From: 'Nostoc azollae' 0708
GTDB lineage: Bacteria > Cyanobacteriota > Cyanobacteriia > Cyanobacteriales > Nostocaceae
Assembly (NCBI RefSeq): GCF_000196515.1
Contig: NC_014248.1
Span: 1,225,501 to 1,289,500 of the forward strand
Length of the DNA stretch: 64,000 bases
Reading direction: 5' to 3'
The notes under the pieces: model-generated
What the model was told of the DNA's origin: nothing
What the model saw: the letters and a program-made list of their open reading frames with translations, nothing else
The model's database searches: none
Translations under genes and position numbers: made by a program
Shown here: piece after piece, positions 11,179 to 56,786 of the stretch
Numbering within the stretch: the first letter of the stretch is position 1
How the letters are laid out: each line of letters opens with the position of its first letter

Positions 11179-11269
11179 TACAGCAGGAGTCACGAGTCAC
11201 CAGTAAAACTCTCTTGCTGTCTAGGTTTCAATTTAGATTCTGTACATCATTCATCTGCAATCTGCTGTA
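11179..11269. repeat. Short dispersed repeat C, copy 1 (about 91 bp)
   Basis: Begins TACAGCAGGAGTCACGAGTC and ends CATCTGCAATCTGCTGTA, so the termini are imperfect inverted repeats (TACAGCAG / CTGCTGTA). The interior AACTCTCTTGCTGTCTAGGT TTCAATTTAGATTCTGTAC recurs at 24746-24835 (inverted) and 53215-53312 (same orientation). No coding capacity. It has the form of a very small MITE; the mobilising transposase is unknown. Confidence 0.8.
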
Positions 11270-15013: not shown

Positions 15014-15198
15014 TGATAGGGACTATCCATGAAGATGTTGATGACAAATTCATAACTGACCTCATATCCATAACATTTATGAAATTGGCAAAACTCATGA
15101 ACCGATTCCTAATGTGACTAAACCACAAATAGTAATAATTACTTGTGAGTAAATTCAGGAATTCAGGGGAAATCTTTGTTGAGGTACCCGGAATATTT

Positions 15199-15650
15199 TT
15201 ACAAGTCTAATGACCTGTTCAACAAGAATACCCTTGGTAGAAAACTCTTTGTTTCCTGCCTTTTGTTCTGAGTCGCCATGGCATAATCACTATCATATTT
15301 TTCTAGCTGTTCAAGGAGACTAGCAGGGAAAACATTTCGTAATATCTCTAGCCAGTAATGAAATGTGTCCTTTGCTTCCGTTTTGGATATACCGAAATGC
15401 AAACCTAAAACCTCAAATGTTGGCATTGTCCTCCAATAGAACAAGCATAGACATACCTGTTCTTTTATCTCTAGTTTCCCTTTCCCCCCTCCTCCTTTCT
15501 GATTTATACCTATGTTTTTACTTTCTATGTCACCTTGAAGTTTTTTATGCTGTATTTCACCTTAGGCTAACAAGTCTTGAAACTGATGGTTAGTTATTCC
15601 CAGTATTTGTTTTCTACGATGTGGATATTCTTGAATATAGTTAATTTAGT
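15199..15650 (-). pseudogene. N-terminal fragment of a DDE_Tnp_4-type (IS5-like) transposase
   Basis: Reading from about 15650 on the minus strand: QEYPHRRKQILGITNHQFQD LLA, an in-frame TAA, GEIQHKKLQGDIESKN, then KLEIKEQVCLCLFYWR, MPTFEVLGLHFGISKTEAKD TFHYWLEILRNVFPASLLEQ. This is the helix-turn-helix N-terminal part of a common cyanobacterial transposase. It breaks off after KYDSDYAMATQ, before the catalytic DDE core. Dead fragment inside the 14.3-18.9 kb graveyard. Confidence 0.8.
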
Positions 15651-37559: not shown

Positions 37560-38552
37560 TACAAATTAGTATTTGTTTGTGTTTGTAGATGGGGTTTATA
37601 TAAAGCTGTCATTGCTTCATTAGCAGAACGTAAACGATTTCCTAAACTGGTTTTGATCATTAAGTTTAAGCAGTTAGTAAAATTGGAACTCAAATTAGCG
37701 ACTTATTCAAATTGAATCCGAAAATCCTTTTCCGGTAAATCTGCGGGATGAGAATCGTTAACTAAATAAATTAATGTTGCCCCTAAACTATAAAGATCAG
37801 AAGTAGGAACAGTTCTTCCTCTAAATTGTTCCTGTGGCATATAACCATAAGTCCCTACATAGTTGTTGTTTCTGTGTCTTCTGTGGCTAAAACTGTTTGC
37901 ATTGAGCCAAAACCCACTAAATAAACTTGACCCACACTGTTACCAGATAGCTCTCCCAACAAAATATTGCTAGGCGTGATATCACGGTGGATCACCTGTG
38001 GGTTTAACTCATGTAGATAAATGAGAATATATAGAACTGCTTTGGCTATATTATTAACTTCCACTTCTGTAAAAGTGCTGCCAGTTTGTAAGTATTGCTC
38101 TAGAGTTCGGGCTGGGATATAAGTTTGGATGAGGGTAAATCCTTTATAAGTTGGTGAATTTACTTCAAAATAGTAGACCTACTGCAAAATTGTTTCTGTG
38201 GTATGATAGAGAGTTTTAGATTCTATGTATTTTTGGTGTTCTTTGGGCTTCCTAATTCAAACATAACCGTGTAACTCTAAATTTTGGCTAGAACAAAGAT
38301 AACCCCCTTTTATAACATAAAATTAATTCTGCAAGAGGTCTAGTCTAAATAGCGAGGTATACAAGGATGGCATAAAGATTTTAAGGTTTGGGCTTCTCGC
38401 TCAAATAATTTGACATCATCCCATTCAAACTCACTACTCAATGGCAGTAACTTGACAATTACCAAGTCATAAGTTAATAAATCACGCGCTAATAGAATTC
38501 GTTTTCCTGACTTTTTGGCCAACTGCTGTTGAACTTCGTAGCGATTTGCCAA
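37560..38552 (-). pseudogene. Decayed Ser/Thr protein kinase interrupted by MITE B
   Basis: On the minus strand, N lobe: NRYEVQQQLAKKSGKRILLA RDLLTYDLVIVKLLPLSSEF, LKSLCHPCIPRYLD. After the insert it resumes YFEVNSPTYKGFTLIQTYIP, catalytic loop HRDITPSNILL, VYLVGFGSMQT, then a frameshift, GTYGYMPQEQFRGRTVPTSD LYSLGATLIYL and a stop at IQFE-stop-VANLSSNF. The magnesium-binding DFG reads GFG, and HRDxKPxN has Thr for Lys. Four independent lesions show it has been inactive for some time. It is a cyanobacterial kinase of the HstK/pknB-like group. Confidence 0.85.
38175..38340. repeat. MITE-like repeat B, copy 1 (about 165 bp), inside the kinase gene
   Basis: Starts AGACCTACTGCAAAATTG and ends AATTCTGCAAGAGGTC, imperfect inverted ends. 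TAGT lies on both sides (38171-38174 and 38341-38344), a likely 4-bp target duplication. Removing the insert restores YLDYFEVN, the expected kinase sequence. Interior has TATGATAGAGAGTTTTAGAT and CATAACCGTGTAACTC, shared with copies at 47133 and 56298. No coding capacity. Confidence 0.85.
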
Positions 38553-46633: not shown

Positions 46634-47620
46634 ATAAATGCTGAAACACTGCTGGAAAAATATGTTGGAGGGCAAAGAAAGTTTCATTCTGTAAATTCGG
46701 GAGGAGTATACCTTAAAAGTTTAGACCTAAAAGAGATAGACCTATATCATTCAAATTTGAATGAAGCAGGTTTAAGTGAGGCCATCCTAATTGGAGCGAA
46801 ACTTAATAGTGTTGTCTTTACTAGACCCTGTCTAAAAAATGCAGATTTGCAATTAGCAGATTTGGAATTAATAGAAGGTTCTTCAATAAATCTAAGCTGG
46901 GCAGACCTTAACTTGGCTTGGTTGATTGGAGCAAGCTTGAATAATGCCAATTTGAGCAATGCCAGTATATATCAGGCAAATTGGGAGAGAATCAACCTCA
47001 ACAGTGCAAATCTAACTGGGGTAAACTTAGCAGAAACAGACTTGACTCAGGCAAGTCTCAATCGTGCATCACTTCAAAATGCCAATCTCCAAAAATCTCA
47101 ATTTCGAGGTGCCAATCTAGAAAAATGTCATCGACCTATTGCAAAATTGTTTATGTGGTATGATAGAGAGTTTTAGACTTTATGTATTTTTGGTGTTCTT
47201 TGGGCTGGCTAATTCAAACATAACCCTGTAACTCTAACTTTTGGCTAAAACAAACACAAACACCCATTATAACATAATAATCAATTCTGCAGGAGGTTTA
47301 ATCTATCAGGTGGAAATTTAGCTGAAGCGGATTTGGTTGCTGTCTTCCTGGGACCAGTCAACCTCAGAAACGCCAGTTTACAAGGTGCAAATTTAGAAAG
47401 AGCTTGTCTAGAAAATACAAACCTGATGAATGCAAACTTTGACGGTGCAAATCTGAAAAGGGCAAATTTAACCAGCGCAAATATATATGGTGCAACCTTT
47501 AAAAATGCCGACCTCACAGGTGCGATAATCCCAAATGGAGATGTTTATACAACAGATGTTGATTTAGACTTCAGTAAACCAGATGTACCCTTACCAAAAG
47601 AGCCAAAAGAGATTAATATT
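46634..47620 (+). pseudogene. Pentapeptide-repeat protein gene, start lost and split by MITE B
   Basis: Reading INAETLLEKYVGGQRKFHSV NSGGVYLKSLDLKEI from 46634, where relatives begin MNAxxLLxxY: the ATG has become ATA. A(N/D)LXX repeats follow: LSEAILIGAKLNSVVFT, NANLSNASIYQAN, TQASLNRASLQNANLQKSQF RGANLEKCH. At 47133 MITE B interrupts, and after it LSGGNLAEADLVAVFLGPVN LRNAS, DGANLKRANLTSANIYGATF KNADLTGAIIPNGD. Excising the insert restores frame (KCHLSGGN). The 3' frame runs without a stop into ridA. Confidence 0.75.
47133..47300. repeat. MITE-like repeat B, copy 2, inside the pentapeptide-repeat gene
   Basis: Starts GACCTATTGCAAAATTG and ends AATTCTGCAGGAGGTTTA. ATC stands on both sides (47130-47132 and 47301-47303), and removing the insert brings the reading frame back together. 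It shares its interior with copies at 38175 and 56298, including TGGTATGATAGAGAGTTTTA and AATTCAAACATAACCCTGTA. Confidence 0.85.
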
Positions 47621-50467: not shown

Positions 50468-51377
50468 GAGGCTATTGATAAAGTAAATGTAAAGGGGAGT
50501 AGACAAGGAATGTTGGAAGGATAGGATACATAAAATGTAGTGTATTTACATAGCTACTGATGGAACGAAAGTCTTACCCCACAGACTTAACTGATATGGA
50601 GTGGGAAATCCTGGCCCCATTGATTCCACTAGCCCAAGAAGGAGGGCATCCACCCACAACAGATATAGGTGAAATATGTAATGCCATCTATTATCATTTG
50701 AAAACTGGATGTCAATGGAATATGCTTCCAGGTGACTTCCCGCCAAGGTCAACAGTATATAGCTATTACAGGAAATGGCAGGGCCAGGGGGTTTGGGAAA
50801 AATTCAACCATACATTGGGTGGTCAAGTTCGCTCGAAATTAGGTAAATCAATACAACCTACCGTGCTTGCCGTAGACAGTCAGTCGGTCAAGACTGACCA
50901 AAAAAAGGGGATGTGTATGGTTTTGACGGATGTAAAAACGTAAAAGGAAGAAAGGGGCATACTTTAGTTGATAGCCTGGGACTTGTGTTGAAAGTTGTTG
51001 TTAGTGAGGCGAATGCCCCAGAACGAATACTTACTGCCTATGCACTAATGGAACTGCTAGAGGAACCCACAGAATTATTAGAAATAGTCCAAGTTTTATG
51101 GGTTGATTCCGGTTATGACGGTGATAAATTTGCACTTGCAGTTTGGTTCATGATTCAAGCTCATGTTGAAGTCATAGGACCTACTGAGCAAGAATTTAAA
51201 GTTTTACCACAACCCTGGGTAGTAGAAAGAACATTTGGGTGGTTTAACCAATATCATCGTCTAAGCAAGGATTATGAGCGTTTAACACAAATGAGGTAAG
51301 GGGCTATATATGCTCTTATGAATAGAATTATGCTACTTCCTCTTGTCTCCTAAACATTTACTTTATAAATCATCTGT
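50468..51377 (+). mobile_element. IS5-family element (IS427-type, about 0.9 kb)
   Basis: Imperfect inverted ends: left ATTGATAAAGTAAATGT (50474-50490) and right ACATTTACTTTATAAAT (51354-51370), 16 of 17 matching, with further similarity on both sides. They bracket a transposase in two overlapping frames. It has inserted into or beside an IS1634-type gene, which ends abruptly at the right end. Confidence 0.75.
50560..51299 (+). CDS. IS5/IS427-type transposase made by -1 frameshift (C terminus short)
   Basis: First frame: MERKSYPTDLTDMEWEILAP LIPLAQEGGHPPTTDIGEIC NAIYY (50560-50943); second frame, from about 50905: DVYGFDGCKNVKGRKGHTLV DSLG, VDSGYDGDKFALAV, VERTFGWFNQYHRLSKDYER LTQMR (to 51299). 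The join lies at AAAAAAAGGGG (about 50900), a slippery run where a -1 shift yields DVYGFDG. IS427-group elements use this mode. The catalytic DDE residues are in VDSQS, VDSGY and VERTFGWF. The end lacks about 20 residues (TAA after TQMR, followed by IYALMNRIMLL), so activity is uncertain. Confidence 0.75.
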
Positions 51378-53214: not shown

Positions 53215-53312
53215 TACAGCAGGAGTCAGGAGTCAGGAGTCAGGAGTAAAACTCTCTTGCTCTCTAGGTTTCAATTTAGATTCTGTACCTCATTGATCTG
53301 CTATCTTCTGTA
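53215..53312. repeat. Short dispersed repeat C, copy 3
   Basis: Begins TACAGCAGGAGTCAGGAGTC AGGAGTCAGGAGT with extra heptamer-like units, then AAACTCTCTTGCTCTCTAGG TTTCAATTTAGATTCTGTAC, and ends ATCTGCTATCTTCTGTA. Same orientation as copy 1 at 11179. It lies between the graveyard and htpG. Confidence 0.8.
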
Positions 53313-56130: not shown

Positions 56131-56297
56131 TTGAACTCTCATATAGCAAGTTAATTAGGGCTTGCTGAAAAAGTCTTTTCGTTGGAGCTAGGAGTCAGGA
56201 CTGAGTTTCAAAACTCACATCTTCATACACATCCGCTATGGGACAATGAAAATCTACTCTTACTAAATGTACATTTACCCCTTTTCTATAACTATTA

Positions 56298-56462
56298 GAC
56301 GTCTTGCAGAATTAATTTTATGTTATAATGAGGGGTAGTCTTTGTTTTAGCCAAAAGTTATAGTTACAGGGTTATGTTTGAATTAGCCAGCCCAAAGAAC
56401 ACCGAAAATACATAAAATCTAAAACTCTATATCATACCACATAAACAATTTTGCAATAGGTA
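56298..56462. repeat. MITE-like repeat B, copy 3 (inverted), intergenic
   Basis: The reverse complement of the copies at 38175 and 47133. Ends GACGTCTTGCAGAATTAATT (left) and CAATTTTGCAATAGGT (right). The interior contains GTTATGTTTGAATTAGCCAG, matching AATTCAAACATAACC. It lies near decayed DNA and does not interrupt a recognisable gene. Confidence 0.8.
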
Positions 56463-56786
56463 TAATATTATATATCCATTGTTTCAATATGCGCTTTTGT
56501 GTCAGCAATATAAGTCTGAGATCCTTTACCGCGCAGATAATTTCTCAGCATTGAAGCAATTTGAGAGTAATAACTACATGAGTATTACTCGCACCAGCGA
56601 TTGCGTAAACTTATCCGTCTCTGTATTCATGTTTTATTGGGCTGGTTTCTTCTAATTGAAGATATTCTTCAGGGTAAATATAGTTATAATTGGGGTTTGC
56701 AATCATAAAAAATATCCTCCGTAAATATATTACTCAAACACAGGCGACCAAATTGCAGAAATTGTAACTTCTATCTAAGTAGAAAC
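56463..56786. other. Intergenic region upstream of nothing annotated, 3' of clpB
   Basis: 324 bp between MITE B and the clpB stop. No gene or intrinsic terminator is visible. AT-rich. Confidence 0.4.

Follow-up and report, generated by a model that had tools for sequence, protein, structure and literature searches.

'Nostoc azollae' 0708, the nitrogen-fixing cyanobacterium that lives in Azolla ferns, has a genome with many pseudogenes and many remains of insertion sequences (PMC2900214). The latter were counted at more than 600 places in 2010 and at 970 in 2015, and have been linked to the pseudogenes (PMC2900214, PMC4369082). Within the window, the whole stretch of 64,000 nucleotides analysed here, a repeat of about 165 bp had been noticed in three copies and taken for a MITE. 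The locus raises the question of what kind of element this is, which transposase could have moved it, and what has become of its copies since. All three copies are present, and a boundary rule derived from 77 copies of the family sets their exact limits as follows.

38172..38174, no strand: left AGT target duplication of copy A (from the sequence and the ANT rule)
38175..38341, + strand: MITE copy A, 167 bp, within a Ser/Thr protein-kinase gene of the - strand, in its N-terminal part (from alignment and the boundary rule)
38342..38344, no strand: right AGT target duplication of copy A (from the sequence and the ANT rule)
47132..47299, + strand: MITE copy B, 168 bp, first base changed from A to C, within a pentapeptide-repeat gene; CAT/AAT duplication with a single diverged base
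56297..56463, - strand: MITE copy C, 167 bp, adjoining a degraded Uma2-like gene remnant; duplication ATT/AAT, one base diverged

The three are thus elements of 167-168 bp of the form AGACCTMTTGCARAATT...AATTYTGCAAGAGGTCT, with a mean column identity of 89% when aligned. That three copies in 64 kb imply a large family is borne out by the whole genome (three contigs, 5,486,145 bp in total), where a search gave at least 40 matches of nearly full length, with identities of 89-100%. Occurrences of the end motif number 224, compared with 7 for a reversed-pattern control, and from such end counts, corrected by the rate at which ends are detected in the 77 full copies, the number of full copies is estimated at about 118. 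Their median length is 167 bp, and the consensus carries stop codons in all six frames.

Insertion duplicated 3 bp of target of the form ANT. In 60 of the 77 copies the duplication is exact, the same AAT, ATT, AGT or ACT standing at either end of the element, and the left flank has A at position -3 and T at position -1 in 75/77 copies each. The sequence-only reading had described a 4-bp TAGT on both sides of copy A; this is really AGT together with the terminal T of the element, and a 4-bp duplication can be set aside, as none of the 77 copies has a 4-bp match once the boundaries are fixed. The element is therefore short, bounded by terminal inverted repeats and without a transposase gene, and it is dispersed in many copies with target duplications. 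Together with its ends and its stop codons, these features support the earlier assignment to the MITEs.

The sole genus-mate compared was a sister genome ('uncultured Trichormus', metagenome-assembled, 490 contigs). By both flanks, 44 of the 77 copies could be traced to it, 39 sites being occupied and 5 empty; the second of the flank searches covered 5,693 of 6,800 query bases, and the remaining flanks lie outside this count. At the empty sites the flanks overlap by exactly 3 bp in four cases and by 10 bp in one, the cleanest being L030 (L030/L102) and L132 (L132/L276), both with an overlap of 3 bp. At least two of the five may be paralogous, because their flanks lie in repeats. The three copies in the window lie no more than 18 kb apart, as they might if a non-mobile repeat had merely been duplicated locally. 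That reading is hardly credible, however, given about 118 copies over the chromosome with unrelated flanks and mostly with ANT duplications, empty sites from which precisely the element and one duplication are missing, and neighbouring copies that are not significantly more similar than remote ones. Genome-wide flanks and empty sites already refute it.

Insertion into genes can be followed in the same way, the queries being the two flanking protein pieces joined (for copy B, with first residues slightly different from the window sequence). The kinase region, in which a Pkinase domain was found, is a single open frame, about 460-510 codons long, in more than a dozen relatives, whereas in both 'Nostoc azollae' 0708 and the sister it lies in two pieces that flank copy A. 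The pentapeptide-repeat gene, with its pentapeptide domain, is likewise split at copy B in these two genomes and is a single open frame in relatives. The interruption of both genes, claimed from the window alone, is thus confirmed. Copy C, which had not been counted among the copies inside genes, additionally lies at a degraded gene, although the adjoining Uma2-like remnant scores just under the Pfam cut-off. Since the consensus has stops in all frames, an insertion would inactivate the gene it enters.

Open frames of at least 60 codons reach 30% of the left junctions of the 77 copies, compared with 64% of random points in the window, so that most copies seem to lie between genes or in stretches that had already decayed. 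The same depletion would suit a functional interspersed repeat, such as a regulatory RNA, a terminator or a recombination motif, kept by selection instead of being a dead mobile element. The element is also an end-to-end imperfect palindrome (an inverted repeat; z = -3.7 and -4.8), for which a strong hairpin is predicted if it is transcribed in either direction. Depletion beside open frames is, however, to be expected from selection against gene disruption. No Rfam match was found, copy A showed no site resembling a promoter or terminator, and orthologous copies diverge by 10.5% compared with 6.9% in noncoding flanks, which is the opposite of conservation. A selected function is accordingly judged very improbable.

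No transposase with the right ends had been seen in the window, which is correct as far as the window goes. A full-length IS with related ends was found elsewhere in the chromosome, by looking for the MITE ends at the genome's DDE_Tnp_4 matches, and cleaner relatives were found in other genera. The chromosomal element is a 1,050-bp IS (L043 1387-2436; chromosome about 1342022-1343071) with an intact transposase of 287 aa, which has DDE_Tnp_4 and HTH_Tnp_4 domains and belongs to the IS5 family, scoring 182.1 bits against NF033581 (transpos_IS5_4, NCBIfam), for which the cut-off is 140. It is a single full-length IS5-family element whose transposase is intact, while most others in the genome are broken. 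Its ends, ATATCTCTTGC and AGACCTCTTACAGG, are related to those of the MITE but diverged, and its target duplication, AGT/ATT, has one diverged base. The sister has this IS at the corresponding site, with two stops in its frame. Because its ends have diverged and it is old at its site, it is to be seen as a surviving relative and not as a proven helper.

The full-length relatives are 1,082 bp long in a Nodularia (L202, AAT/AAT) and 1,076 bp long in an Anabaena assembly (L207, ATT/ATT). Their ends are perfect or nearly so and their duplications have the ANT form, while their transposase frames are interrupted. The MITE thus has its ends in common with an autonomous type of element, both in its own genome and elsewhere, and matches the full-length relatives over 43-51 bp on the left and 42-47 bp on the right at 78-90% identity. 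Its middle, roughly positions 52-120, is mostly without a match in any IS found, apart from a weak match of about 30 bp in inverted orientation. A placement of the partner IS in the ISL2 subgroup would rest on the ANT duplication, a feature of ISL2.

Some further repeats and fragments of the window and of the element may be recorded here. A DDE_Tnp_4 fragment at 15116-15274 belongs to a repeat, now degraded and at least 820 bp long, that occurs at several chromosomal sites; such fragments had been considered as a second MITE, and this candidate was dropped once they proved to be part of the longer degraded element. At 50560-51299 an IS-like transposase is spread over two frames of 127 and 128 aa that overlap, a pattern resembling a frameshifted IS remnant. 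Another interspersed repeat family lies at 11184-11269 and 53227-53312 (91% identical, CAGGAGTCA...ATCTGCTGTA), and similar sequence also flanks several MITE copies. Within the MITE itself, positions 126-135 form a C-rich stretch, hypervariable in the two genomes alike, with several frequent bases at a number of columns. Positions 71-78, at the centre of the element (for example window 38245-38252), hold a HIP1-like octamer, which reads GCGATCGC in a Dolichospermum planctonicum copy but takes many forms in 'Nostoc azollae', GCGCTCGC and GGGCTCGC among them, and is among the element's most variable stretches.

Taken as a whole, this is very probably an IS5-related family of non-autonomous MITEs, whose ends an IS5-family transposase, encoded by an IS, would recognise in trans. 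A transposase of the L043 type may have moved the copies, and the MITE may itself derive from an IS of this kind that lost and rearranged internal sequence. The ANT duplication has been reported for bacterial IS5 (PMC4482050), and IS5-family elements (NF033581), together with eukaryotic kin that have ANT duplications (Pangu; PMC4482050), offer the closest comparison: the partner IS has the same kind of transposase, and the MITE has the ANT duplication and shared ends. It differs from these elements in that it codes for nothing and that most of its middle has no IS origin among those found. MITEs have been reviewed (PMC10969869). The related cyanobacterium Anabaena sp. 90 contains 147 complete or partial MITEs of 77-541 bp, 132 of them intergenic and 15 interrupting genes, and no IS with similar inverted repeats was found in its genome (PMC3542288); these are likewise short elements, compared here by description. 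The same applies to Nezha, an active cyanobacterial MITE that is also small and non-autonomous (cited in PMC10969869).

Among the 60 genomes searched, high copy number is confined to 'Nostoc azollae' 0708 and the sister. Dolichospermum genomes contain members of the 167-bp family with at most 3 matches per genome, and one Dolichospermum plasmid carries a single member. On that plasmid (L253 1-2690), and in one further genome (G016, L033), the MITE relative adjoins a large gene that is SDR-domain or polyketide-synthase-like. Since Dolichospermum has few copies and the two Azolla symbionts alone have many, the family probably predates the Azolla lineage and was amplified within it; the expansion would then have taken place in an ancestor of the Azolla symbionts. 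It is now old and largely quiet, as most insertions are common to the sister and near-identical pairs are absent among the sampled copies, which all differ by at least 4.8%. One occupied site, L009, carries the element in inverted orientation in the sister (L009 1501-1670 compared with L114), with flanks that are palindromic there (CACGGCGGTACTA / TAGTACCGCCGTG); recombination or an assembly error is possible.

The occupied sites also allow the later history of the copies to be compared between the two lineages. In 38 same-orientation orthologous pairs, with the derived state polarised by Dolichospermum, five derived alleles were found only or mainly in the 0708 lineage, at 25-55% of shared sites, while the sister keeps the ancestral base. 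Their counts in 0708 and in the sister, respectively, are 19 and 2 for A7, 13 and 1 for A22, 21 and 0 for G72, 10 and 2 for C77, and 13 and 0 for C95. The five co-occur within copies beyond chance, the observed value being reached in none of 5,000 permutations. Although copies L001-L030 had been picked by their similarity to copy A, the other copies give similar allele frequencies, the derived alleles being present in 18-58% of them. Since the sites were already occupied before the split, the derived alleles would have moved between copies, and this points to gene conversion. It is therefore suggested, tentatively and with a likelihood put a little short of even, that short-tract gene conversion overwrites MITE copies in the 0708 lineage, so that a family of 167-bp elements evolves in concert. 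In the sequence of events proposed above, this partial overwriting of copies by one another would be the latest step, and a less certain one than those before it. Long-tract conversion was rejected, because rare shared alleles do not cluster. Among the repair genes reported as pseudogenes in 'Nostoc azollae' 0708 is recD (PMC2900214).

The sister is a metagenome assembly in 490 contigs, and a short-read assembly that collapsed variants of the repeat could by itself leave alleles common in 0708 nearly absent there, without any conversion. This is an unlikely explanation, if a serious one. Positions 7 and 22 are so near the unique flank that reads could take in both, position 74, which lies between 72 and 77, is still variable in the sister, and the private changes per copy (1.5 in the sister and 1.7 in 0708, in the first 21 pairs) are similar. 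Alternatively, the same sites might have mutated independently in the 0708 lineage, as hot sites, following an insertion burst shortly before the two lineages separated. Once the most variable columns are left out, divergence is 7.7% between orthologues, 7.5-8.5% between paralogues and 6.9% in noncoding flanks, values that are about equal and fit neutral drift since a burst close to that separation; the rare shared alleles, moreover, show neither clustering nor tract structure. For this reason excess divergence was discarded as proof of conversion, and the linked derived alleles are the evidence that remains. Independent mutation at hot sites does not readily account for their co-occurrence above chance, for their presence at such frequencies in copies not picked by similarity, or for the inclusion of C-to-G and G-to-C changes that are absent or rare in the sister, and it is considered distinctly improbable. 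Short-tract conversion in the 0708 lineage is accordingly retained as a tentative reading of the allele pattern.

The family itself is of an ordinary kind, but it is new in the published record of this genome. The genome studies collected repeats of more than 600 bp and more than 500 bp, and their main texts make no mention of MITEs (PMC2900214, PMC4369082); a 167-bp family falls below these limits and would for that reason have been missed. Of 41 papers in which part of the MITE ends is printed, the ten whose titles were listed do not concern transposons by title, and a search for concerted evolution of bacterial MITEs gave nothing relevant among the titles listed. Inventories of an eroding symbiont genome have thus passed over a family of about 118 copies, some of them inside genes. 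Most of the traced insertions are older than the separation of the two symbiont lineages, so that the family is of use in dating some of the gene loss. Should the allele pattern prove real, this bacterium would be homogenising very short dispersed repeats, which would bear on recombination in a host-restricted genome.
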